Below are positions 8,741 to 49,480 of a stretch of 64,000 bases of DNA, in pieces (the first letter of the stretch is position 1; each line of letters opens with the position of its first letter). The DNA lies in NCBI GenBank assembly GCA_021324735.1, contig JAJPIO010000004.1, positions 62,001 to 126,000 on the forward strand, written 5' to 3'. The position numbers and the translations under genes are program-made. The notes beneath the pieces were generated by a model, which searched no databases, was not told the origin of the DNA, and saw only the letters and a list, made by a program, of their open reading frames with translations. This stretch comes from Bacteroidota bacterium (lineage in GTDB: Bacteria > Bacteroidota > Ignavibacteria > Palsa-1295).

Positions 8741-11700
8741 ATGTCGGATTCCTTCGTTCCTATGAAGACACCGCTTTCTTCGAAGCGTAGGATGGTCTCG
8801 CCTGCTTCGAAACTCTCGATCTTTATTGCAGCGACACTCACGGTTTTAGCACATGGCACTCTTGGGGCGCAGCAGATCGGCAATGTGGTGCCAAGCTATA
8901 ATGTGGTGCCGAGCTACGAAGTACTATCGTCGAAACCGGACGAGGTGGTGATCCGGATAGAACCCCGATACGAATCGCATACCGTAACTGGCACCGATGG
9001 ACGTACCTACACGGAGATAACATTCCCTGGCGGCATTGTAAAAGATCTCGCCGGTACGCCGGAGCTTCCTAAGCTACTGCTTTCTTTCCTTGCACCGAGT
9101 ACCCATCGTGCTGCGATCGACATCATTAGTCAAGCGCTGGAAGTATTACCGGGAGTCGATCTTGCACCGGTACCGACACGAGTAACGCGGAATGGCGAAG
9201 TCGATCGCGATTACGTCTTTAATACGGACCGATATAATACTCCACACGATATACCATTATTTGAAGCAGGTCCGGTATCGAGATTCCGCACGGCATATTC
9301 CGAGCAAGTTACGGTCGCTCCTATTCAATATGATATAGCCAGCCGCACGGTCACTCGCATTAAGTCGCTTACGCTTCGCATTCGCTTTGCCGATGCCAGG
9401 ATGACCACTGCACCGAACGACTTACGTCTTACTCCCGAAGAGACGGAGTTCTTCCGTGGCAATTTCGTCAACTCGAACATTACACAGTTTTATGGCATCG
9501 CATGGAGTGATGCTCGTAGTGCTCTCGGTATATCGCGCACGGTAACGACGGCACGTTCGCTCGGTCCGGGCCAGTGGGTCCAACTGGAGACCGGCGATGA
9601 AGGCGTCTATCGTATTACGGCACAGGACCTTGCCAAGGCCGGCATCACCGGCTCGATCGACACCAGTACGATCGAGCTGTTTGGTATGGGTGGCGAAATG
9701 CTGAATGAGAAGCCCACTACGAATTCCGGTGAATGGATCGAACGGCCGGTGGAAATTCACATGAACGGGCAGAGTTTCTCCGATCTCTACTTCTACGCAC
9801 CCGGCGTAAGCGTGTGGAAATATGATGCTTCCGAAGATGGCACGGAAGGACTCTTTCATACTCTGAATCCCTACAGTTCTACCGGTCATTTCCTGCTTAA
9901 GATCGGCGGCGACCGTTTGGGTGCCGATCGTCGCATTGCCAGTTCGTCAGATTCTCTCGCATCGGCGGCCATACCTTCCAACCGAGTTTTGTCCGCTCTA
10001 TGCCGCGAGAACGATCGCAAGATGGAATACGGCAATGTGGGCCGCGAAATGCTCGATCAGGATATCCCTCGCTCGGACGTTGGCTCCCTACAGTTCACGA
10101 TCACTCCTCCCGGCTACACGGGAGACTCCACAATAGTACGGGTGGCCTATGATGCGAGTAACGCAGCAAATTCCGATGCCGTCGTTACCGTCCAACTAAA
10201 TGGGCGAACAGCCGCTACGCTGCCGGTTAGTAGCTCACAAAATCGTGTATGGGACCACACGTTTGTTGCCGATCCTTCGATCGCTTCGCCACTTAATTTC
10301 GGATTGAGCTTTTCGGCCTCTCCTACAATTGCAGTTGCGACGCTCGATTTTGTAGAGATGATCTACCGTCGCACGACCGATATCGGCTCGAAGTCCATTC
10401 CATTTCTGCTGATCGATAACGGTAATGCTTATCAGTATTCGCTGACCCATGCAACAGGCGGCGAAGTATGGGATGTGACCAATTCACTCTCCCCCTCCAT
10501 GCTCGCATCGGCAAATGGCGACATTATCACCGTTTCGCTACAGGGCGAGAAGCACGCAATGCGACAGTTCATCGCGTTCTCGGCACAATCGGTACTTTCT
10601 CCGAACAGTATCTCGAGCATTGCGGTACCCAGTTTACGGTCCGGTCTCGGAACGACCGGTGCGACCGAGATCATCGTGGCACCCCCTGATTTTCTCGATC
10701 AGGCCAACGAACTGAAACAGCTTCGTCAAGAAGGAGGACAGGCGACCGAGGCCATGTCGGCGGCCGTCGTTTCGACCGATGATATCTATCGTGAGTTTGG
10801 CTATGGCAATCGCGACCTCACAGCCATACGCGATTTCATGGCTTATTTGATGCACCACGCTAATCAGCGTCCGGTCTATCTGACTTTATTAGGCGGCGGC
10901 CACTGCGATTATCAAAACCGCGAGACCAATGCTCCGAATTGGATTCCGACCTGGGAAAACGAACCAATGGATTTCCCGCCCAACTTCCGTTCGTCGATCC
11001 CCAACGAGCCATATCCGGATGATTGGTATTTCGTTCAATTAAGTCCGAATACACCAGACCAGCAGTATGACCTGTCGGTCGGAAGGGTCTCTGCACGCAG
11101 TGCCGACGAAGCGGAAAGCTATGTTCAAAAAGTACGGGAATACGAACACCATAGTGATTCCGGCTCCTGGCGAGGCCTGGCCACGTTCCTTGCAGACGAT
11201 CGCTTCGACCCGGAATATGCGTACGCGAAAGATCCCTTAGACCATTTTTATGATACCGAGCATGAGTTAGTATTCGTGCAGGATCGCGTACTCATTAATA
11301 AGATCTATGAAGTATCGTATCCATCGATCATAACCTCCGGAGGTCAACGCAGGCGGCCCGCCGTGGAACAAGCTATTATCGATGCGATAAACAATGGCAG
11401 CGTTCTTTTTTCCTACATCGGCCATGGTAATCCAACTGTTTGGGCGCATGAATCAGTACTTAACGTGCCGAGCACGATCAATCGACTGAATAATTTCGAT
11501 CGGTTAGCTTATCTTACTACTGGCACGTGCGATTTTAGTGAGTATGATAACTTCGCCGATTTCTCGGGCGGCGAAATGTTCTTATTATACCCGACTGGTG
11601 GCGCTATCGGTATGCTCGGGACGTCACGCTCCGTTGGCGGCGGCGAGCCGTTGCTCGATTATTTCTATCAGTATCTCTTCCAACAAGGCGGTTCGAACGG

Positions 11701-12901
11701 CACGGCCACGGTTGGTAAAGCGATACAGTATGCCAAACCGCATGGCAGCGATCCGCAATACTTTTACTTGCTCGGTGATCCCGCCCAACGATTATTAGTA
11801 CCCAAGCTGTATGTGACCTTCGACTCGTTAAACGGTCAGACGATGGGAGAAAACCGGATCTCGCTTCCCGCCCTTTCGAGCGTACACTTAGGTGGCAGCA
11901 TTCGTACCGGTACCGATGGTACGTCACCGGTCGTCTCTTCCTTCGATGGCACCGTCACCGTTAGCTTATTCGATACACCAACGCTCGAAAGCGCAACCAC
12001 GACGTATGGGGATGGAACGTCAATCAAAGATACCTACTTCGTAGAGGGGCCGATTCTGTATCGTGGTACCGCAACCGTTACCAACGGGCATTTCGATGTC
12101 ACCTTTATCGTACCACGCGACGTAAAACTCGATACCAGCTCCGTAAAACTTTCCGGCTATGCGTATGCGAACGATACTCGCACCGCCTTAGGTGATTCTA
12201 AAGGTATTGTTCTGAGAAGCCCGGATAGCACTGTTTCGCTCAACGATACCACCCCACCTCAACTGAAGCTTTATATCGGTAGCCGTACCTTCCAAAGTGG
12301 TGACGCCGTTTCCATGCATTCCACAGCCATCGTGGATGTAAATGCGTTGCACGGTCTTAACACATCGACGACCAGCATCGGACATACGTTCATTGTCTGG
12401 ATCGATAATGCGATGGATTCCGCCATCGATATGGCAAGCACGTACATCTCGAAGCAGAACGATTACACGCAAGGGACGAGCGCCCACCCGATCGAATTGC
12501 CGGCGGGTCATCATACCTTGCATGTTCGCGCGTTCGATACGTATGATAATGCCGCTTTCGCAAGTGTGGACTTTGTCGCTAAGGACAATGTTCCGTATCA
12601 TTTATACGAGCTTAGTACATCACCTAACCCGGTGATCGACCATACGACATTTTCGTTAACGCAGCCGGGCAATGCTGGCAGCCTTATCCGTGCAACGCTT
12701 CATATTTACACGATCGATGGCCGCGCCATACGGACGCTGACAACGGAGACTCGTGAAAGTGTCGTCCAAATTCCGTGGGATGGAGAGGACGCGACCGGTA
12801 CGACGGTGGCGAACGGCATTTATGCGTTTACGATCGACGTCGATGACCTGGATGACGGCACATCATCCGTTGCCAGCGGTAAATGTATTGTTTCACACTA
12901 A
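8741..12901 (+). CDS. porU: Type IX secretion system sortase PorU-like (C25 peptidase)
   Basis: A 1386-residue exported protein. Signal-type hydrophobic stretch at about 24-42, a long N-terminal region of beta-sandwich character, then a gingipain-type C25 cysteine peptidase domain (about 640-1010): LTLLGGGHCDYQN, LFSYIGHGNP with catalytic His895, and YLTTGTCDFSEYDN with Cys930. The 35-residue His-Cys spacing fits C25 enzymes. The C-terminus (about 1290-1386) is an Ig-like/FlgD-like domain with SPNPV...IYTIDGRAIRTL...WDGEDATG. PorU removes the C-terminal signal of type IX cargo and attaches it to a surface glycolipid. PorV follows directly, its known partner. The start could instead be the ATG at 8762; both leave the signal intact. 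Confidence 0.9.
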   Translation: MSDSFVPMKTPLSSKRRMVSPASKLSIFIAATLTVLAHGTLGAQQIGNVVPSYNVVPSYEVLSSKPDEVVIRIEPRYESHTVTGTDGRTYTEITFPGGIVKDLAGTPELPKLLLSFLAPSTHRAAIDIISQALEVLPGVDLAPVPTRVTRNGEVDRDYVFNTDRYNTPHDIPLFEAGPVSRFRTAYSEQVTVAPIQYDIASRTVTRIKSLTLRIRFADARMTTAPNDLRLTPEETEFFRGNFVNSNITQFYGIAWSDARSALGISRTVTTARSLGPGQWVQLETGDEGVYRITAQDLAKAGITGSIDTSTIELFGMGGEMLNEKPTTNSGEWIERPVEIHMNGQSFSDLYFYAPGVSVWKYDASEDGTEGLFHTLNPYSSTGHFLLKIGGDRLGADRRIASSSDSLASAAIPSNRVLSALCRENDRKMEYGNVGREMLDQDIPRSDVGSLQFTITPPGYTGDSTIVRVAYDASNAANSDAVVTVQLNGRTAATLPVSSSQNRVWDHTFVADPSIASPLNFGLSFSASPTIAVATLDFVEMIYRRTTDIGSKSIPFLLIDNGNAYQYSLTHATGGEVWDVTNSLSPSMLASANGDIITVSLQGEKHAMRQFIAFSAQSVLSPNSISSIAVPSLRSGLGTTGATEIIVAPPDFLDQANELKQLRQEGGQATEAMSAAVVSTDDIYREFGYGNRDLTAIRDFMAYLMHHANQRPVYLTLLGGGHCDYQNRETNAPNWIPTWENEPMDFPPNFRSSIPNEPYPDDWYFVQLSPNTPDQQYDLSVGRVSARSADEAESYVQKVREYEHHSDSGSWRGLATFLADDRFDPEYAYAKDPLDHFYDTEHELVFVQDRVLINKIYEVSYPSIITSGGQRRRPAVEQAIIDAINNGSVLFSYIGHGNPTVWAHESVLNVPSTINRLNNFDRLAYLTTGTCDFSEYDNFADFSGGEMFLLYPTGGAIGMLGTSRSVGGGEPLLDYFYQYLFQQGGSNGTATVGKAIQYAKPHGSDPQYFYLLGDPAQRLLVPKLYVTFDSLNGQTMGENRISLPALSSVHLGGSIRTGTDGTSPVVSSFDGTVTVSLFDTPTLESATTTYGDGTSIKDTYFVEGPILYRGTATVTNGHFDVTFIVPRDVKLDTSSVKLSGYAYANDTRTALGDSKGIVLRSPDSTVSLNDTTPPQLKLYIGSRTFQSGDAVSMHSTAIVDVNALHGLNTSTTSIGHTFIVWIDNAMDSAIDMASTYISKQNDYTQGTSAHPIELPAGHHTLHVRAFDTYDNAAFASVDFVAKDNVPYHLYELSTSPNPVIDHTTFSLTQPGNAGSLIRATLHIYTIDGRAIRTLTTETRESVVQIPWDGEDATGTTVANGIYAFTIDVDDLDDGTSSVASGKCIVSH

Positions 12902-12953: not shown

Positions 12954-14051
12954 ATGACACTATTACATAATAGAACACTGATACTAATAACATTAGCGGT
13001 CGTAGGATTAGCGGTTCTCCCTCGGTCCGGTTCGGCACAGATCACCTCGACGGCGGTGCCCTTTATGCTCATTGCCCCCGATGCCCGAGCCAGCGGCATG
13101 GGTGATGTAGGCACCAGCCTTCCGGAGGATGTCGGCGCGATCTATTGGAACCCGGCCGGCCTGGCATTCCAGACTGGCAAGGCCGTTTCGCTGACGCACT
13201 CCCAGTGGTTGCCACAGTTCAATCAGAACGACCTCTTTTACGATTATCTAAACTTCAAGTGGAATGACGACGAGAAATTTGGCGGTACGATCGGCGCCAG
13301 TATCGTCTTCCTGAATTTGGGTGAATTTATTTATACCACGGAGAGCTCTCCTACTCCGATCACCACATTCCATTCCTTCGAATACGCAGTAACGGCAGCG
13401 TATGCTACGAAGCTTTCAGAAGACTGGGCGTTCGGCGGTAGTTTACGATATATTCAATCGACACTTTCGACCCTGCATGTCTCCAACGAACAGCAAGGTG
13501 GCGTTGGCCGGTCAGTGTCATTCGACCTCAGTGCGTTGTGGAAGCCCGATTCCACCTATGTTGACGGCATTGGTAATGCACTCCAGGTGGGCTTCCTGCT
13601 ATCCGATCTCGGACCAAAAATTCGATACGTCGATGCGTTACAAGCGGACCCGCTTCCAACGGAATTACGCGTCGGTGCTTCCTACAAGCTCTATGAAGAT
13701 GAGTATAACAAGCTTACGGTCGCAACGGACGTAGGCAAACTTCTCGTCCATCGCGATTCTGGCAGCCTCATTGCCGATCCTCTTCCGAAGTCGATGATCA
13801 CTGCGTGGGATGATAGCACCATGCATTCCTTCATGTGGTCCACCGGTGTGGAATATTGGTACGATCAACTCGTAGCGTTACGAGCAGGCTATTACACGGA
13901 AGGCTCACACGTCGGTGGACGCCAGTACATGACGTTTGGCGCCGGCCTTCGCTATGATGCCTACACATTTGACTTTAGCTATATCGATACGTTCGACCAG
14001 AACCATCCTCTTGCCAATACCCTGCGATTTACGCTTGGCATAAAATGGTAG
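12954..14051 (+). CDS. porV: Type IX secretion outer-membrane protein PorV
   Basis: A 365-residue outer-membrane beta-barrel of the FadL/PorV group. After a signal peptide ending near GSA-QI, the mature start reads TSTAVPFMLIAPDARASGMGDVGTS, the characteristic PorV/PorQ opening, then IYWNPAGLAFQ. The C-terminal strand ends in LRFTLGIKW, typical for barrel insertion. PorV shuttles cargo from the type IX translocon to the PorU sortase. Gene lies 52 bases after porU with a good Shine-Dalgarno (AGGAAGAG), so both are probably one operon. Distinguished from PorQ mainly by the adjacency to porU and similarity of the N-terminal motif. Confidence 0.92.
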   Translation: MTLLHNRTLILITLAVVGLAVLPRSGSAQITSTAVPFMLIAPDARASGMGDVGTSLPEDVGAIYWNPAGLAFQTGKAVSLTHSQWLPQFNQNDLFYDYLNFKWNDDEKFGGTIGASIVFLNLGEFIYTTESSPTPITTFHSFEYAVTAAYATKLSEDWAFGGSLRYIQSTLSTLHVSNEQQGGVGRSVSFDLSALWKPDSTYVDGIGNALQVGFLLSDLGPKIRYVDALQADPLPTELRVGASYKLYEDEYNKLTVATDVGKLLVHRDSGSLIADPLPKSMITAWDDSTMHSFMWSTGVEYWYDQLVALRAGYYTEGSHVGGRQYMTFGAGLRYDAYTFDFSYIDTFDQNHPLANTLRFTLGIKW

Positions 14052-29411: not shown

Positions 29412-32288
29412 ATGATTACCTCGAGAACGACACAGCACTTTGTTTCTTCGCGTTACTTTGCTCCCTTCTTGATACTTATTGTTAGTCTTATAGCATCGAC
29501 GGCCATGGGCCAACAAGTCACGCTACTAAGCACTCAGACATTTTCATCCTCTTCGATGCCGCCCAGCGGTTGGACGTCGGGGGGAGGATTTTTCTGGTCG
29601 AGTAATGGCGATGGCGGCTCTAACGGATCGGCGGTTTGTGATATCTGGAATTACGGTGTCGGGCCACTTAGCACACCGTCCATCAATGCCAGCAAGTACG
29701 CCATTGCGGCTGATTCGGTATGGGTCGATTTCGATTTCTTCTGGGAGTATAATGGCTATGATGCCGCCGGATATGGCGATGATGAATTCATCTTCCAAGT
29801 CAATTCCGATCAATTGATCACGGGTACCCAGGCCCAGCTTTATACGTATTATGCCCCCAATGACTACAACTTCAGTCTGATTCAGACATCGACGAGTTAC
29901 TGGCGGCATTATCATGTGCTCGTACCAGTAGCGGATCGCACGTCAGGCATGACGGTTTCCTTTACCGAAAGTCCGAATTGGGGCTGCTCGGATTATGCGA
30001 TCGACAATGTAACGGTCACCGCCTTCGCGGTTCCTCCGGCTGAATTATCCTTGCAACCGAAATCCCTTAATTTCGGAGCGTTGCTTGTTGGTCAATCGAG
30101 CCAGATTTGCACGTTGAAGGCCTCGTCGGTCGGACAGCAGACGCTGCACATTCAAAACATCTCACTCTCCGGCTCTAACGCTTTTTCGATCGTAAGCGGA
30201 CCTCCTGTTGGTACCGCGATAGCGGCTGGAAGTTCGGCTTCCTGGTGCATTCAGTTTTTACCGCTCTCACGCGGTGCGGCAACCGGAACGCTCACGGTCA
30301 CTACCGACGGTGCGGATTCCGGTACTCAGGTGGTGCAACTTACAGGATACGGAGCGGCTCCAACGATTTCCTATGGCGTCACTTCGCTCTTTAATCGCGT
30401 CCATAAACGAATAGGCGATACCGCAACAACAATACGGTATATTCCCGTAACGTCGACCGGTGATGGCCCCGTCACGTTCAATAATTTCACCTTCATTGGG
30501 TTGAATGCGAACAACTACTCGATCGCCTATATGCCTCAGAACCCGCTTCCACCCGGTATGAGCGATTCGATCGGCGTACGCTTTACACCGACTATTGAAG
30601 GCAGACCGGATGCACAATTAATAATTAGTACCAATGCGACGAATAAGCCGCTCGATACGGTAATGATGCTTGGCGTCGGGACCTTACAACATTTAGTTAT
30701 CACGGTCTCACCACCAGGTAGCGGCAATACGGTAATGTTCGATTCCGTCGCTATGGGCGACTCCGTGTGTCAGTCCATTACCCTGACGAATCCTGGAACC
30801 GATACTCTCCGAATTTTGCGGCAGTTAGTAACCTACGGAGATTATGATTTCTCCTTCTATCCTCTTCGTGGTGCCGACACCATGATCGTGCCCGGAGGTA
30901 CAAAGGTGACGAACATCTGCTTCAAGCCGATCAAGAATGGCTTCCGAGAAGCTTCCATCCGGTTCTTCACCAATATTCCGGCGACCTTCGAAATGCCGAC
31001 CCGCGATACAAGCCAGTTCGTCGTGAATATCAACGGAATTGGAGTACCATACGGTCTTCTTTCCGTGACAGGGCCAATAGTCGATTCTGCGGTTATAGGC
31101 AACACGAATTGCATTACCGATACGCTGAAGAATGTTGGCTTAGCGGATATGACGATCACTTCTGCTGTGATCACCGGTCCGACCGCTTCCCAATTTAGCG
31201 TCAGTACGCCAACACCATTTACTGTTCCGTTTGGACAGACGAAACTGGTATCGCTGTGCTTTACCGCGCATACCCGTGGCCCCGTCGGTGATACGCTTAC
31301 CGTTACTGGCACCACGTCGGAGCATTCATTCACCATTGTGCTTCCGCTTACAGGATATGGCTTACAACAATGTGCAACTGCATCACCTTTGACGGCTGCC
31401 TTTGGCGCAAAAGGTATTACGCTCGTTGGTGCAACAGATGTAGATACTATCACTGTACAGAATTGCGGCGATCTCAGCGCTACGTTCACACCAAGCATTA
31501 CGGCTGGTGCAACAACATATACTGTTAGCCCAAACACGGCAGTACAAGTCGCACCAGGCGCTTCTACTACATTCGTTGTCAGCTTCAAACCGACAGCAAT
31601 GGGCAATGCAGCAGGTACGCTTATGGTCTCCGGAGGCCCCGCTCCGATCAACGTAACGCTGAATGGCGTTGGCGGTGGAGTCACCGCAAGCGCGACCGGC
31701 TCGCCCAATGCTCCGGTTTCGATCGGTGCATGCCAGAACTTCTCGATAACGGTAACCAATAGTGGTAACGTTGATTGGACGCCAGGAACGGCAACGATCG
31801 GCGGAGCTAATGCCAACGACTTCACCGTCGTTACGCAAGTGACGCCATCAACGATTCCTGCCGGTGAGACGGGAGTCGTAACGGTCCAGTTCTGCCCGAA
31901 GACCGTCGGTACGGAATCGATGACTCTTACATTCCCGAACGCCTCTCCGGCGCCGTTAACCTCCTTCAGTTATACGACGAACGGGGTCGGTGCTTCGAGC
32001 GGTGTCTCACTTAAGGCCGAACAAAATGGCTTTGTATTAGGACAGAGCTATCCGAACCCAATGAATGGCACCGCAGATGTGTTCGTCACGCTTCCAAAGG
32101 ATGCAGCGATCCGTATCGACCTGCTCGACATGAGCGGAGCGGTTGTGAAGACAATGTTTACAGGCACGCTGGGAGCAGGCGATCATACGCTTTCGCTGGA
32201 CGCTCGTACTCTCGCAAGTGGTACATACTTCTATTGCCTTACGAGCGGCGATGTGCGTCTCACTCGGGAATTCATTCTTATGAAGTAG
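29412..32288 (+). CDS. Giant secreted protein: adhesin-like head plus HYDIN/ASPM-like repeats and type IX C-terminal domain
   Basis: A 958-residue exported protein. Signal peptide to about 35 (ending TAMGQQ); residues 36-205 form a jelly-roll like the choice-of-anchor J/MAM-type adhesin domain, with FWEYNGYDAAGYGDDEFIFQ and the end YAIDNVTVTAFAVPP. Six beta-sandwich modules of the choice-of-anchor D (ASPM/SPD-2/HYDIN) type follow, about 210-870, beginning LSLQPKSLNFG. Modules 1, 3, 4 and 6 carry a Cys pair placed near the second and seventh strands, likely a disulfide in each. The C-terminus, LGQSYPNPMNGTADV...IDLLDMSGAVVKTM...GTYFYCLTSGDVRLTREFILMK, is a type A sorting domain for type IX secretion. 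Likely surface-attached through PorU. Paralogous to the next gene. Confidence 0.85.
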   Translation: MITSRTTQHFVSSRYFAPFLILIVSLIASTAMGQQVTLLSTQTFSSSSMPPSGWTSGGGFFWSSNGDGGSNGSAVCDIWNYGVGPLSTPSINASKYAIAADSVWVDFDFFWEYNGYDAAGYGDDEFIFQVNSDQLITGTQAQLYTYYAPNDYNFSLIQTSTSYWRHYHVLVPVADRTSGMTVSFTESPNWGCSDYAIDNVTVTAFAVPPAELSLQPKSLNFGALLVGQSSQICTLKASSVGQQTLHIQNISLSGSNAFSIVSGPPVGTAIAAGSSASWCIQFLPLSRGAATGTLTVTTDGADSGTQVVQLTGYGAAPTISYGVTSLFNRVHKRIGDTATTIRYIPVTSTGDGPVTFNNFTFIGLNANNYSIAYMPQNPLPPGMSDSIGVRFTPTIEGRPDAQLIISTNATNKPLDTVMMLGVGTLQHLVITVSPPGSGNTVMFDSVAMGDSVCQSITLTNPGTDTLRILRQLVTYGDYDFSFYPLRGADTMIVPGGTKVTNICFKPIKNGFREASIRFFTNIPATFEMPTRDTSQFVVNINGIGVPYGLLSVTGPIVDSAVIGNTNCITDTLKNVGLADMTITSAVITGPTASQFSVSTPTPFTVPFGQTKLVSLCFTAHTRGPVGDTLTVTGTTSEHSFTIVLPLTGYGLQQCATASPLTAAFGAKGITLVGATDVDTITVQNCGDLSATFTPSITAGATTYTVSPNTAVQVAPGASTTFVVSFKPTAMGNAAGTLMVSGGPAPINVTLNGVGGGVTASATGSPNAPVSIGACQNFSITVTNSGNVDWTPGTATIGGANANDFTVVTQVTPSTIPAGETGVVTVQFCPKTVGTESMTLTFPNASPAPLTSFSYTTNGVGASSGVSLKAEQNGFVLGQSYPNPMNGTADVFVTLPKDAAIRIDLLDMSGAVVKTMFTGTLGAGDHTLSLDARTLASGTYFYCLTSGDVRLTREFILMK

Positions 32289-32312
32289 TACTTTTTCTTA
32301 CACTTCAAAATA

Positions 32313-32340
32313 AGCGGCCTTTGCATGTGCAAAGGCCGCT
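32313..32340 (+). terminator. Terminator after the first secreted protein
   Basis: A 13-base-pair perfect stem, AGCGGCCTTTGCA (32313-32325) with TGCAAAGGCCGCT (32328-32340), then CTTGTTTT. It separates the two tandem paralogous genes, so the second needs its own promoter. Confidence 0.88.
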
Positions 32341-32407
32341 CTTGTTTTCATGCTTGTCTCACAGACGAGTAGCTTCATGATTTTATGCCAAGCCAGTTAA
32401 AAAGTTG

Positions 32408-32415
32408 TATCTTTG
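32408..32415 (+). promoter_or_regulatory. Candidate Bacteroidota -7 promoter element
   Basis: TATCTTTG matches the TAnnTTTG element recognised by the primary sigma factor of Bacteroidota, between the upstream terminator and the downstream secreted-protein gene. The expected -33 TTG is not clear. It overlaps the earliest possible TTG start at 32413, which supports translation starting later, at 32506. Confidence 0.4.
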
Positions 32416-32505
32416 TGGAGTAAACCTCCCTTTGTGGTTTACAGCGGTCCTCCGAATCTCCCGGTCGAACGCCCTACTTACAATCATTTATTCTCTGTAG
32501 GTCCG

Positions 32506-35490
32506 ATGAGAATCTCTAATCACTTCCAACGCATTCTTTGCGCCGTTTTGGTGCTGTTTAGTTTATCACTTATCGCTTCTAATTCATGGGCACTCCCGAA
32601 AGTGTTAGTGGTGGGAGCCGAAATAGATTCATGGGGTCAGGACGTAGCCGCTAAGCTATACAATACCGGCCAATTTGAATCGGTTGATTGGTTTAATTGC
32701 AGAAGCGAAGCACCCTCCCTTTCGACCCTTCAATCCTACAACGCGGTTCTGGCGTTCACCGATTACAATGCAGCCACAGGCACCGGTGATGCCCTCGCTT
32801 CTTATGTCGATGGCGGCGGCGGGCTCGTCCTCTGTATGTTCAGCTATAGCTCCGGTTGGACGTTCGATGGACCCCTTATGACCAGCACATATCTGGCATT
32901 GTCTGCCGACGTTAGTGTCAATTATGGGTTTGCGAGCCTCGGTGGTGTAAGCCGTCCTTCCCACCCTATTATGGCAAATGTAACGACGTTCGACGGAGGC
33001 GAAAGCAGCTACCGATGCTCCTCATCGCTCGTTGGCGATGCCTACACCATCGCTTATTGGGATGATGAAAATATTCTTGCCGCAGCACGCGATGATGTCG
33101 GGCCCAGCCACGTTCGACGAGCGGATCTCAATTTCTTTCCTGTCTCTTCCGATATTCGATCGGATTTATGGACAGCGAGTACTGACGGCGCCATCTTAAT
33201 GGCCAACGCACTTACATGGGTAACGGGTCAATCAGCACCACCACCTCAACTTAGTCTGCAGCCGAAGTCACTAAATTTTGGAACAGCCGAAATAAGTGAA
33301 CCTCCGGTCACGCTGTGTGTGACGGCAAGCAACGTCGGCGAGGGTACGCTTCATATTCAAAATTATAGTATTACAGGAATGCCGGACTATGCTGTAACGA
33401 GTGGTCCGCAGATCGGCGATTCTATTCTTCCTGGCAGCTCCGCTGAGTTCTGTATCAGCTTCACCCCATTTGGTGCTGGCCCCCGTACTGCAACCTTCAC
33501 GTTGGGCACCGACGGAAGGGATTCCGCTTCCCAATCGGTAAGCCTCCTTGGCACTGGCGTCGCACCAGAAGTCCAATATCAGGAAACGAGCCTCTTCCAT
33601 ACCTCTCGTGTACGGCTACGCAGAACGACCGTAGCTTACTTACACGTCTCGTCGATCGGGACGGGGCCATTGACGATCAGGAACGCGCACTTTACAGGTA
33701 CTAACCCAGATAATTATACGATCGTACACATGCCGGAAGGGCCGATCCCTGCCGGTATGACCGATTCTATTGGTATCCAATTCGGCCCGAAATTCGAAGG
33801 TCGTACCGATGCCGCGCTCGTGGTAACAACGAATGCGCTCACTCTTCCAGTATACACGCTACCACTATCTGGTATCGGTATTCTGCAACGCCTGACCATC
33901 ACGACCGCCTCGGCTCTCACCGGAAATACCCTTAACTTCGATTCCGTAGCGATTGGGGATTCGCTTTGCGCTGCTCTTAGCCTATACAATCCGGGTTCTG
34001 ACACACTGACGATCTCAAAGCAGATGAAGAATGGCGGTGATTATGATTTCACATTGTTCCCACTCACAGGATCGACTGTAAAATTGCTTCCTGGCGCAAC
34101 CGGAATTGTCAACATCTGCTTCAAGCCGTTGCGTAATGGCACTCGTGTGGCGAACTTCTCTTTCTACACCGATATTCCGCAGACGTTCGATGCTCCGCCT
34201 CGTGATACCAGCAAGTTCACGATCTACGTAACTGGTATCGGTGTACCGTTTGGCAAACTCATCGTAACAGGACCGATAGTCGATTCGGCGTTGGTCCGTC
34301 AAACGTCCTGCATAACGGACCTGCTATCCAATATCGGTCAGGCGAACATCACGGTTTCGCGCACCTATATTACCGGGCAAACCGCACCTCAATTCACCGT
34401 TAACTCGGGTGCGCCGTTTACCCTTTCGCCAGGTCAGTCACGATCTGCGTCCTTGTGCTTTACCCCACTTGTACCCGGATTCGTGTTCGATACGTTAGTC
34501 GTATTAGGATCGACTTCCGATCATCCGATCACCCTGATGGTACCGCTTATTGGTTACGGCACACAACATTGTGCTCAGCCTTCTGCCATGAGCGTCGAGT
34601 TCGGCACAAAGGGATTAACGCTCGTAGGTTCAACATCGTATGATACGATCACGGTAAACAATTGCGGAGATTTTCCAGAGACCTACTCCGCTCAGCTTCT
34701 ATCCGGAGTTACTACGTACACGGTAACACCAGCCGCTTCAGCCGTAATAGCTCCAGGAAGCGCTGCAACGTTTATCGTGAAATTCGCTCCGTTGGCTATT
34801 GGCCCAGCCGTAGGCTCCTTGCAGATCACGAGCGGTGCTACTCCGCAAGTAGTAACACTGAATGGCGTCGGAGCCGGTATTATTGCGACCGCCATGGGAG
34901 CACCCACCTCTCCGGTTCCAATTCGTGATTGCTCGAACTTCGATATTACGATCACGAACAACGGTAATACTGATTGGACATTGGGCGATGCTCTTATTAC
35001 AGGGGCAGACGCTAATGATTTCTCGGTCGTTACCCAAGCTACTCCGGCAACGATTCCTGCTGATGGCTCTGCAACTATTACGATTCGGTTCTGCCCGAAA
35101 AAGATCGGCACAGAATACATGACGCTGACCTTCCCGAATTCCAGCCCGATGCCGTTGGTACCAGGATTCAGCTATACAACGTCCGGTATTGGCGCAGCCA
35201 ATTCGGTATCATCCTTCGAGCAGCAGGATGGTTTCGAACTCGGTCAAACCTATCCTAATCCGACCAATAGCTCGGCTGATCTGGTAGTGACAACTCCGAG
35301 AGATGCTAATGTGCGTATCGACATACTCGATCTTACGGGCCATGTTGTACGTACCGTCTTTTCGGGATTCATGGCTGCTGGGAAGCAAGTGCTGACGATC
35401 GACGGCAAGGATCTTTCGAGCGGCACATATCTCTACACTCTTACAAGTGGCAATGTTCGGCTGGCGCGACAGTTCATGCTGATGAAGTAG
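32506..35490 (+). CDS. Giant secreted protein: ThuA/GATase-like head plus HYDIN/ASPM-like repeats and type IX C-terminal domain
   Basis: About 994 residues, paralogous to the preceding gene over the repeat region and C-terminus but with a different head. MRISNHFQRILCAVLVLFSL...SWA is a signal peptide, which is why I start at the ATG 32506 rather than the TTG at 32413. The head (about 32-240) begins LPKVLVVGAEIDSWGQDVAAKLYN and includes YNAVLAFTDYN and ASYVDGGGGLVLCMFSY, a flavodoxin/ThuA-like fold often found in exported proteins. HYDIN-like modules with a Cys pair per module follow, then FELGQTYPNPTNSSADL...IDILDLTGHVVRTV...LARQFMLMK as type IX sorting domain. Enzymatic activity of the head is uncertain. 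Confidence 0.82.
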   Translation: MRISNHFQRILCAVLVLFSLSLIASNSWALPKVLVVGAEIDSWGQDVAAKLYNTGQFESVDWFNCRSEAPSLSTLQSYNAVLAFTDYNAATGTGDALASYVDGGGGLVLCMFSYSSGWTFDGPLMTSTYLALSADVSVNYGFASLGGVSRPSHPIMANVTTFDGGESSYRCSSSLVGDAYTIAYWDDENILAAARDDVGPSHVRRADLNFFPVSSDIRSDLWTASTDGAILMANALTWVTGQSAPPPQLSLQPKSLNFGTAEISEPPVTLCVTASNVGEGTLHIQNYSITGMPDYAVTSGPQIGDSILPGSSAEFCISFTPFGAGPRTATFTLGTDGRDSASQSVSLLGTGVAPEVQYQETSLFHTSRVRLRRTTVAYLHVSSIGTGPLTIRNAHFTGTNPDNYTIVHMPEGPIPAGMTDSIGIQFGPKFEGRTDAALVVTTNALTLPVYTLPLSGIGILQRLTITTASALTGNTLNFDSVAIGDSLCAALSLYNPGSDTLTISKQMKNGGDYDFTLFPLTGSTVKLLPGATGIVNICFKPLRNGTRVANFSFYTDIPQTFDAPPRDTSKFTIYVTGIGVPFGKLIVTGPIVDSALVRQTSCITDLLSNIGQANITVSRTYITGQTAPQFTVNSGAPFTLSPGQSRSASLCFTPLVPGFVFDTLVVLGSTSDHPITLMVPLIGYGTQHCAQPSAMSVEFGTKGLTLVGSTSYDTITVNNCGDFPETYSAQLLSGVTTYTVTPAASAVIAPGSAATFIVKFAPLAIGPAVGSLQITSGATPQVVTLNGVGAGIIATAMGAPTSPVPIRDCSNFDITITNNGNTDWTLGDALITGADANDFSVVTQATPATIPADGSATITIRFCPKKIGTEYMTLTFPNSSPMPLVPGFSYTTSGIGAANSVSSFEQQDGFELGQTYPNPTNSSADLVVTTPRDANVRIDILDLTGHVVRTVFSGFMAAGKQVLTIDGKDLSSGTYLYTLTSGNVRLARQFMLMK

Positions 35491-46213: not shown

Positions 46214-46342
46214 TCCCTGTTTTTCGAAGCAGCCGTTTCTGCAACCGATATAAAGTTTGCGTGTTGTATGCTCTTCGGTTACGGTAAGTTTAGTCTGGCC
46301 GTAATTGTAATATTTCGCAAACTAACCCTGATTCTCATTTCC

Positions 46343-49300
46343 ATGATAGTCACTCGTTGGAAGAGCGCGCCAGGCCATCTCGGTTTTGTCACGGTCTTCT
46401 CCCTTCTTCTATCCCTCCTCATACTTCCGTCCACCAGTAACGCTCAATCAGATGAGGCTGAGATCGCTCCGCATCCCATGGTAGCTCCCACCGATTCCGG
46501 TGCCTATTACGAGCTCAACCGGATGCCGGAACAGCTCCGCCGTTCGATGCCATTCGCTCGAGAGTTCGATGAGTATGTACATGAAGCTGGACTTTCTGGG
46601 ACAGTAAGCCAAAGTGATTATCTGAAAACATTCGAGGAAGCACGCCAGGATTATTTACGCGCAAGCCGCCCGGCGATGAAGAGTGCACCGGGTCACGTTC
46701 TTTCAGGTCAATGGACCAATATCGGTCTAACGGGAGCTGATACCGTACCTTCGGCAGGCATCACGACGTCGATCGTCTTCGATCCTCAGCATCCCAATAT
46801 TATGTTTGCCGGCGGTTCGGGTGGAGGCGTATGGAAATCGCTTGACACTGGCGCCAATTGGATGCCACTCACCGACGAATGGCTACCAAACCTCGCTGTC
46901 TCGTCCATTGCGATCGATCCGGCAAATACTAATACCCTATATGTTGGTACAGGTTATTGCTTTCCGGCTAATGTGAACTATGGCGGCAGCGGACTTTACA
47001 AGACCACCGATGGTGGAGCTACATTCACACGTCTTAACGTCACAACTTCAACGGGAGCTACCGGCAAAGTCGATACAGGATCGTTCGTGAAAGTTTTTGT
47101 CCATCCGACGAAATCGAACATCGTGTTTGCTTCGGCATACGATCAAAATATGGGGCTCTACCGCTCCACCGACTATGGTGCAACATGGGATACGGTCTAC
47201 TCCCGCGGGAATGTGGTGTGGGATATGCTTTCGACACAAGATCAGGGCGGAGCGGTCACTCTTTATATGATCGCAGGCGGTGATGCTTATCGGGTATATG
47301 GCAATAACAATTGTGGTGTCTATAAATCGACCGATGATGGTAAGACGTGGGTGAAGACCACAACTTCCACAAACTTTTATACTCCTACTTCGATCGGTCG
47401 GGCAGCGCTCGCGTCACCCGCAAAGGCTCCGAATAAAATATTCGCTCTTCTAACGAATACATTTACGAGCGATCAGGCGATGTTGTATGAATCGACAGAT
47501 GCGGGTGCAACCTGGAATTCTTACTCGCCAACCATTCCGTCCGATCTTTTTATCGTAAAGGCCTCCGGTATCACTAATCCTCAAGGGTGGTACGATCTAT
47601 ACCTTGCAGTTAGTCCGAACTCTGTTAATAGTGATACGATCTATGCCGGCGGAGTCGTAGCATATACGAAGCAAGGCTCCGGCTCTTGGGTCGCATTTAG
47701 CGATTACGATCCAGGCCATTCGGAAGGTAAAGGTGGGTATCCGCACGTTGACCATCATTCTTTTGCATTCAATCCGCTCAACTCGCGCATCGTCTATGAT
47801 GGTAACGATGGAGGCCTCTTCGTAAATTATGCGTCCGGTTCGAACGATGTTGCTAATACCGGCGGATGGATACTCCATTCACGCTCAATGGTCACGAACC
47901 GTGTATACCACATTGGCATGCAGCCAGCGCTTGGTGATCCATCCAGCGCCTTAACGTTTGCGGGCTTGCAGGACCAGGGGATGTGGAAACTTACGAAGGG
48001 CCAGGACCCACTCTACCGCAAGAGTGGCGACGCAACACAAGTGCTTGTCGCTAGCAATAAAAACTTCGTCTATAGCCAGGGTGTGTTCGGCATGACGGTT
48101 TCGACCAAGCAAGAACCAACGGTGGATCCCAATGATGGTTGGACCGTCATCTGTAGCGACACAACGATGAATACGTCGAGCGGTTGGGTACGTGAAGCTA
48201 CCGGATGGGATTCTCCATTTAAAATGTCACCAGCTAACCGTCCTCCCATTCAGGCATCAAACATTTTGTATCAAGGACGCCAATCCTTGTGGCAATCTAC
48301 TAACAGCGGTACGACGTGGACAAAGCTCGATCCGAATTTCAGCTCAACCAGCGATAACGTTTATTACACGAGCGCCATCGGCTTACCTTCTTGGGATGCG
48401 AACATTATTTATGCGGCAGGGTGGCGCAGTAAATTCTATTTATCAACGCAATTTGGTGCAAAGGGCACATGGACTTTGCGCTCGAATCTTCCTTCCGGTA
48501 GCGTTGTAACATCGATCAATGCAACAGCCCAAAATCCGACGTTCATATTGGTGAGCCTTGCCGGATCGAAGAATAAGATCATGGTGTCACCGGATACTGG
48601 TAAAACGTGGACCGATGCCTCCGGCGTCGCTGGTGAGAGCCTGCCCGGCGCAGGAATTTCCACAAGTTGCAATGTAATGAGCGTTGCAATGGATTCGGTA
48701 AATCCGCTCACTACCTGGTATGCAGGTACGGACTTTGGCATGTTTGTTACCAGAGATGCAGGCCAGCACTGGAGCTTTATGGACGGTTTTCCGGGTCTCA
48801 TCCCTTGCCGTGATGTACAAGTTGCACCGAACCGCAATACGCTCCGCGTAGCAACACATGGCCGTGGCATTTGGGAGTTGAATGGAATTCTTGCTGTCTC
48901 TTCCACCTCGCTTTCGGCAACAAAAACACCGAACGGTACTCAGCTTTCATGGTATGTCGACAACGAGGCCCCCGGCGCTCGTTTCTCGATCGAGCGCTCT
49001 GTTGGTGACGAGCCATTCGAACCTGTCAGTACGTTATCCGGACAAGGCGCTTCTTCAGTGCGCCACAACTATTCTTTCAGTGATGCGGCAACTACACCGG
49101 GTACATATCTCTATCAGATCCACGAAACGGATGCAGATGGCTCTGAACATTACTCCAATACCGTAGAGCTGCATTATGGCACAGATCAGATCTTTGTATA
49201 TCAGCCATATCCGAATCCCTTTGTAGCTGGCGGTGGTGACGAGATGACGTTCGCTTATGAACTACCGGCGCGAGATGATGTAACGCTTTCTATCTATAAC

Positions 49301-49480
49301 ATGAGCGGCGTTCTCATTCGCACGCTGATGAACACTACACTCGATGGCGGGCCGCATTCCATCTCGTGGGATGGGCGCGATGCAACCGGCGCTTTCGTTG
49401 GACCAGGCGGATATATTCTCTCTATTCAAACCGGCCATTCAGGTCTGTTCCAGAATAAGATCATGGTAGTAAAAGAATAA
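46343..49480 (+). CDS. Large secreted Asp-box (sortilin/BNR-type) propeller protein with type IX C-terminal domain
   Basis: About 1045 residues. The ATG at 46343 gives a signal peptide (LGFVTVFSLLLSLLILPSTSNAQ); the frame extends to 46268. From about 125 to 840 the sequence repeats the Asp-box motif S/T-x-D-x-G-x-T-W: SLDTGANW, TDGGATF, TDYGATW, TDDGKTW, TDAGATW, TNSGTTW, PDTGKTW, RDAGQHW, indicating one or two beta-propellers as in sortilin/VPS10 and BNR proteins. Then a fibronectin-like domain and the sorting domain YQPYPNPFVAGG...SIYNMSGVLIRTL...ISWDGRDATG...NKIMVVKE. Exported by the type IX system and probably surface-attached or released. Ligand is unknown; sialidase catalytic residues were not found. 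Confidence 0.85.
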   Translation: MIVTRWKSAPGHLGFVTVFSLLLSLLILPSTSNAQSDEAEIAPHPMVAPTDSGAYYELNRMPEQLRRSMPFAREFDEYVHEAGLSGTVSQSDYLKTFEEARQDYLRASRPAMKSAPGHVLSGQWTNIGLTGADTVPSAGITTSIVFDPQHPNIMFAGGSGGGVWKSLDTGANWMPLTDEWLPNLAVSSIAIDPANTNTLYVGTGYCFPANVNYGGSGLYKTTDGGATFTRLNVTTSTGATGKVDTGSFVKVFVHPTKSNIVFASAYDQNMGLYRSTDYGATWDTVYSRGNVVWDMLSTQDQGGAVTLYMIAGGDAYRVYGNNNCGVYKSTDDGKTWVKTTTSTNFYTPTSIGRAALASPAKAPNKIFALLTNTFTSDQAMLYESTDAGATWNSYSPTIPSDLFIVKASGITNPQGWYDLYLAVSPNSVNSDTIYAGGVVAYTKQGSGSWVAFSDYDPGHSEGKGGYPHVDHHSFAFNPLNSRIVYDGNDGGLFVNYASGSNDVANTGGWILHSRSMVTNRVYHIGMQPALGDPSSALTFAGLQDQGMWKLTKGQDPLYRKSGDATQVLVASNKNFVYSQGVFGMTVSTKQEPTVDPNDGWTVICSDTTMNTSSGWVREATGWDSPFKMSPANRPPIQASNILYQGRQSLWQSTNSGTTWTKLDPNFSSTSDNVYYTSAIGLPSWDANIIYAAGWRSKFYLSTQFGAKGTWTLRSNLPSGSVVTSINATAQNPTFILVSLAGSKNKIMVSPDTGKTWTDASGVAGESLPGAGISTSCNVMSVAMDSVNPLTTWYAGTDFGMFVTRDAGQHWSFMDGFPGLIPCRDVQVAPNRNTLRVATHGRGIWELNGILAVSSTSLSATKTPNGTQLSWYVDNEAPGARFSIERSVGDEPFEPVSTLSGQGASSVRHNYSFSDAATTPGTYLYQIHETDADGSEHYSNTVELHYGTDQIFVYQPYPNPFVAGGGDEMTFAYELPARDDVTLSIYNMSGVLIRTLMNTTLDGGPHSISWDGRDATGAFVGPGGYILSIQTGHSGLFQNKIMVVKE

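Follow-up and report, generated by a model that had tools for sequence, protein, structure and literature searches.

The two tandem genes analysed here lie in a 64-kb window (the whole 64,000-nucleotide stretch under study) and belong to a real family of T9SS stalk proteins with varied heads, which is nearly confined to one GTDB family. Our reading is that these proteins are exported by the T9SS and combine a disulfide-stapled stalk with varied heads, and that the stalks undergo gene conversion while the heads are kept or occasionally replaced. We assign this reading a probability of about 0.65. In related species the stalk bears other tips, so that this group of bacteria seems to conserve the stalk while the tip varies.

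Two tandem genes share a six-module stalk

Each gene encodes a putative N-terminal Sec signal peptide (read by eye), a head, six HYDIN/ASH modules and a T9SS type A sorting tail (Table 1). At about 960-1000 aa the proteins are smaller than the word "giant" in an earlier note on this DNA had implied. The claim in that note that they have six modules and the sorting tail in common was confirmed. Each protein contains six stretches matching NF012200 (choice-of-anchor D, HYDIN type; 166.6 and 161 bits, cut-off 45) and one tail, the Pfam models Cep192_D4, HYDIN and ASH match both proteins, and BLASTP gave a collinear alignment with 393 of 758 positions identical (52%), which runs from residues 202 and 270, at the head border, to the end. 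In a domain-by-domain alignment, modules at the same position in the two proteins were 45-62% identical and modules at different positions 19-41%. Same-position pairs scored 247-361 and any other pair of the six modules at most 95, so that the opposite outcome considered in the earlier note, namely counterpart modules that are no more alike than others, does not hold.

Gene 2 probably starts at the ATG at 32506 rather than at the listed TTG, because the latter leaves 31 residues ahead of the signal peptide. The terminator-like hairpin between the two genes means that they may be transcribed separately. The hairpin scan returned seven sites against a shuffle mean of 6.7, a total that is not above chance; among them, the intergenic stem is the richest in G-C pairs.

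Table 1. Features of the cargo genes and of the T9SS genes in the window. Module borders are our own.
Feature	Position	Strand	Remarks
PorU, T9SS sortase	8741..12901	+	703.7 bits, cut-off 420
PorV, T9SS type A shuttle	12954..14051	+	270.5 bits, cut-off 250
Gene 1 (protein P0001)	29412..32288	+	958 aa
Gene 1 head A	29511..30038	+	residues 34-209; all-beta in low-confidence model, perhaps jelly-roll
Gene 1 module M1	30039..30362	+	Cys 233/279
Gene 1 module M2	30363..30683	+	no Cys
Gene 1 module M3	30684..31046	+	Cys 453/503
Gene 1 module M4	31047..31361	+	Cys 567/616
Gene 1 module M5	31362..31673	+	Cys 654/685
Gene 1 module M6	31674..31994	+	Cys 774/828
Gene 1 T9SS type A sorting tail	32049..32285	+	TIGR04183
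Terminator-like hairpin	32313..32340	+	12 pairs, between genes 1 and 2
Gene 2 (protein P0002)	32506..35490	+	from likely ATG; ORF listed from TTG 32413
Gene 2 head C	32590..33237	+	remotely ThuA-like; alternating strands/helices at start of poor model
Gene 2 modules M1-M6	33244-33567, 33568-33882, 33883-34245, 34246-34560, 34561-34872, 34873-35196	+	Cys 302/347, 519/569, 633/682, 720/751, 840/894
Gene 2 T9SS type A sorting tail	35248..35487	+	

The proteins carry predicted signals for export by the T9SS

Both tails scored above the cut-offs of TIGR04183 (34.5 and 34.9 bits, cut-off 23) and PF18962 (31.6 and 40.4 bits, cut-off 27). The genes for PorU and PorV are neighbours and lie, like the two cargo genes, within the window, and SprA is encoded elsewhere in the genome (575.8 bits, cut-off 200). 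According to the portion of the published account consulted, type A tails use PorV and the outcome is anchoring or release (PMC12618676). A surface location of the stalk proteins is likely. The signal peptide and the type A tail would direct them through SprA and PorV, after which PorU would remove the tail and either attach or release the protein. The six Ig-like modules, five of which are probably disulfide-stapled, would then form a stalk that holds the N-terminal head off the cell. A further large protein encoded in the window (46268-49480) also has a T9SS type A tail, along with a below-cut-off match to the F510_1955 glycosylhydrolase model.

The heads are of four kinds

Clustering of 37 heads (BLAST, E<1e-8, over more than 100 aa) gave 17 heads A, 17 heads B, two heads C and the singleton L035, which is a weak stalk match and was dropped. 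At a looser E<1e-4 without a length limit, heads A and B link via short matches. The heads of gene 1 (A) and gene 2 (C) are unrelated, as had been noted earlier: the best alignment of the two proteins begins at the head border, and the heads fall in unlinked clusters.

The description of head A as adhesin-like is weak. The head of gene 1 had no Pfam match up to E=10 and no NCBIfam match, and for the 17 head A members the best Pfam match of any kind had E=0.11, none being to the cleaved-adhesin model that typifies gingipains, while NCBIfam returned none up to E=1. A head A profile gave only weak matches to CBM27 and reelin (E 0.38-0.79). The ThuA/GATase-like description of head C is weak as well and amounts to a remote likeness, at E=0.0037 to ThuA (PF06283), with a score of 18.0 bits that falls below the cut-off of 33.4. 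Single-sequence searches of the PDB with heads A and C found no match up to E=1. A two-row profile of head C matched designed proteins alone (E 0.083 and 0.13), which we took as chance. The AlphaFold models of both heads were poor (pLDDT 52 and 41), and because of this low confidence the Foldseek lists serve as hints only: neither model had a match counted at E<=0.001, and carbohydrate-binding modules and lectins were among the weak hits of head A.

A head B profile matches residues 5-217 of a chain deposited as RemA (PDB 8gl6, 8gl6_D; E=2.9e-22), and head D contains PhoX and Phytase-like domains above their cut-offs. Head B also occurs outside the stalk family, with matches in 15 of 28 genomes beyond the same GTDB family. 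Head A is nearly family-restricted: 18 of its 26 profile matches are the 18 head A rows of the stalk tree, and outside the GTDB family only three of the 28 genomes have a match, none better than E 2.6e-7. Other architectures also bear heads A and C: head A occurs on a distinct HYDIN array (1210 aa) in genome G006 and head C, at 47% identity, at locus L114 of the source genome (architecture read by eye). A head A protein of 745 aa at L069:15125-17359 has a shortened stalk.

The heads may thus comprise a perhaps jelly-roll A, a B like the N-terminus of RemA, a remotely ThuA-like C and a PhoX/phytase-like D. As the head kinds differ, one stalk would present different binding or enzyme tips. We consider it possible, if unlikely, that the heads are enzymes or tethers instead of binders and that the proteins are released to the medium. 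This would suit the PhoX/phytase-like head D, the weak ThuA likeness of head C and the capacity of type A CTDs to give release as well as anchoring, as stated in the part of PMC12618676 drawn on here; the RemA-like head B and the low-confidence jelly-roll likeness of head A speak for binders.

The stalk is nearly confined to one GTDB family

A genome-wide search for further members with other heads, as proposed in the earlier note, revealed four head kinds among the 38 stalks whose head could be read, in 13 genomes. Among the 41 genomes searched at E<=1e-20, the stalk was present in all 13 that belong to the same GTDB family and in one of the 28 others (G023, a weak match of 28% identity). The source genome holds three more near-full copies of the gene 1 stalk, all with head A, and the closest publicly named relative is "Bacteroidetes bacterium isolate Centralia_MAG_339" (53%). 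From 50 ORFs that matched the stalk, 41 entered the tree: 18 with head A, 17 with head B, two with head C, one with head D and three whose heads are cut off (L075_8883, L088 and L089), which were kept without a label. L069_15125 was assigned to A and L087_469 to D by inspection, in agreement with the profile search (A) and the Pfam scan (D). Weak or fragmentary matches were left out, namely L035 (26% match), both L076 pieces, L085, L086 and L092-L095. The L076 pieces (L076:5283-6666, in G006) are a stalk gene seen as two separate open frames, perhaps a decayed copy.

Many stalk genes share neighbours across genomes and so occupy recurring loci. Next to a bS21-like gene (named by eye) we found A and C in G000, A in G005, B in G003 and two A each in G007 and G009. 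Next to an sHsp-like gene (also named by eye), G008 and G012 carry sister stalks (100/97) that are 87% identical in M3, under heads that are merely 29% identical. This is the clearest head difference on one stalk at one apparent locus, on contigs of just 4.6 and 3.6 kb.

Stalks probably recombine between paralogues under different heads

The 38 rows whose head is known imply nine head changes on the stalk tree, where the minimum possible is three; the count is 12 if the three headless rows form a group of their own. The labels A and B nevertheless group together more strongly on the tree than they do when shuffled (A, 9 changes versus 13.6; B, 7 versus 13.3). Stalks of the same species with different heads also cluster, in G006, in G001 and in the window genome: one clade (100/98) unites the A, B and C stalks of G006, and another (99/98) the stalks of genes 1 and 2.

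The B stalk of G001 is a mosaic. Its identity to the B stalk of G002 is 85% in M1 and 53% in M5, and its identity to the adjacent A stalk of G001 is 59% in M1 and 96% in M5. The same gradient was seen at four-fold sites of the G001 B/A pair, of which 9 of 39 are identical in M1, 51 of 69 in M5, 40 of 68 in M6 and 35 of 47 in the tail (p=4.5e-7). Another pair in G001 has a synonymous gradient with p=1.0e-10, and in a G007 B/B pair, where both genes have the same head kind, identical four-fold sites rise from 24 of 48 to 58 of 62 (p=3.7e-10). A G011 pair reached p=2.5e-4, with 13 sites and at the end of a contig. At four-fold sites, the G006 and G009 pairs are near the level of the window pair with no comparable rise, and recent homogenisation is therefore seen only in G001, G007 and, on few sites, G011. 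The gene 1/gene 2 pair has no synonymous gradient at four-fold sites (p=0.64), and it is old.

These data bear on whether an old duplication with differential loss would suffice, such that ancestral tandem copies bearing different heads disappeared unevenly among the species and the likeness of the stalks reflects only selection for a conserved stalk. We regard this as rather unlikely overall, though it may apply to genes 1 and 2. It accommodates the recurrence of tandem pairs, the clustering of A and B labels on the tree, the even synonymous divergence of genes 1 and 2 and the lack of a strong gradient in the G006 and G009 pairs, but in the G001 and G007 pairs synonymous sites, and not residues alone, are homogenised in the tail-side modules, and the same-species clustering of stalks with different heads in G006, G001 and the window genome likewise runs against it.

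Break points were sought within the stalk alone, because non-homologous heads favour a break. In 10 of 11 triplets, which had been picked after the identity tables were inspected, the observed break point was matched in at most 3 of 5000 shuffles. Gene 1 was the query in two of these (0 and 3 of 5000, with breaks in M3 and M4), and the exception, the triplet of gene 2, was borderline (246 of 5000). Cross-genome control triplets, which have the same head kind in different genomes and are not all proven to share one locus, reached p<0.01 in 4 of 36 cases and p<0.001 in none, while 461 of 1484 systematic paralogue triplets reached p<0.01. AU tests on single modules were underpowered, with p=0.053 and 0.0535 in two cases and 0.13-0.55 in the others.

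Our conclusion is that homogenisation has affected tail-side modules in G001 and G007 at the least, and probably in other genomes longer ago, and that the head and M1 tend to follow descent. We take this mosaic pattern to reflect gene conversion among stalks whose heads are retained, with some heads replaced. Paralogous stalks would recombine such that gene conversion evens out the tail-side modules in some genomes, and the head, which has no homology to other heads, would be retained together with the adjoining M1 or occasionally be replaced. The idea of the earlier note that heads are exchanged on one scaffold thus stands in part: its core is right, with homogenisation of the stalks as an additional or even the main process. 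Varied heads do sit on one stalk, and the sister stalks of G008 and G012 agree with an exchange. Exchange is nevertheless only part of the process, because in the G001/G002 comparison, the clearest example, the tail-side stalk has become alike between paralogues, and the head and M1 side with the orthologue.

A collapse or chimeric joining of near-identical repeats in metagenome assemblies appears very improbable as the source of these patterns: 15 of the 50 matching ORFs do run into a contig end (e.g. L066, L077, L087 and L091-L093), which fits assemblies breaking at near-identical repeats, several genomes are split into hundreds of contigs and the G008/G012 case lies on short ones, but the window pair lies within a 243 kb contig and the G001 B/A tandem within a 605 kb contig, and the identity of the latter climbs across several modules and not at one joint.

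Cysteine pairs co-vary across the stalk family

Five of the six modules (M1, M3, M4, M5 and M6) have a Cys pair that is aligned in both window proteins, M2 being the one without, which agrees with the earlier note that several modules keep a Cys pair at matching positions. Across the family the M4 and M5a pairs are nearly invariant, with both/mixed/none counts of 39/0/1 and 35/0/2. Among 20 Cys-bearing columns, 6 of 190 column pairs passed a Fisher test at p<1e-3, values which ignore relatedness. These are M1 (12/0/25 if an adjacent column is taken to hold the same Cys, 8/4/25 in the raw counts), M3 (34/0/7), M5b, which is absent from the window proteins (19/0/17), M6a (10/1/24), M6b (10/3/22) and one pair between M5 and M6 (7/1/27). 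Independent contrasts on the tree, which was itself built on recombining stalks, were concordant in 5 of 5 cases for M1, 5 of 5 for M3 and 4 of 4 for M5b (alone 0.0625, 0.0625 and 0.125). The stalk columns P0001 670/787 and 756/847 hold alternative Cys pairs in other lineages, one of which would link M5 and M6.

Partners of a Cys pair thus tend to be gained or lost together. Such co-variation is what a disulfide predicts, and on the strength of these alignments the disulfides are putative.

Relation to known systems and significance

The closest precedent, as far as the consulted part of PMC5266723 describes it, is domain rearrangement in the T9SS adhesins of Porphyromonas gingivalis, where modular gingipain/HagA variants form mosaics by recombination. 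The likeness, drawn from that description rather than from sequence, lies in modular T9SS cargo with recombination mosaics. The gingipain/HagA variants are reported among strains of one species and for catalytic and adhesin domains, whereas the present proteins have a six-module HYDIN stalk in common and differ in their N-terminal head, across a family of species. A second likeness is to RemA, a T9SS gliding adhesin of Flavobacterium johnsoniae, and its homologue RemZ, as given in the part of PMC10994853 used here. It consists of the match of head B to the RemA N-terminus and of the type A tail, and concerns head B of the relatives, neither window gene having this head. NF012200 and the Pfam HYDIN/ASH models are generic domain families that match the modules of both proteins; they do not cover the fixed six-module stalk, its Cys pairs and its varied heads. 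Searches of the literature on RemA/SprA, HYDIN with T9SS or gene conversion, choice-of-anchor proteins, concerted evolution of T9SS adhesins and Kapabacteria surface proteins gave no description of the family, judged by titles and abstract starts among the matches listed. The family is therefore best placed as a lineage-restricted variant of known modular T9SS cargo, and this variant is new.

A bolder extension, which we hold only tentatively and think improbable, is a lineage-wide system of head cassettes, where head and M1 would be the inherited or exchanged unit and the disulfide-stapled stalk with its tail a common socket that gene conversion keeps uniform, so that species would vary their surface tips, binders or enzymes, at a handful of recurring loci.

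With one stalk and four head kinds in 13 genomes of one family, these proteins offer a clearly delimited natural example of modular surface display in Bacteroidota. The co-varying Cys pairs would allow disulfides in exported HYDIN-type modules to be tested directly, and the recombination signature, which is readable in some of the 13 genomes, could show how T9SS bacteria diversify their surface.
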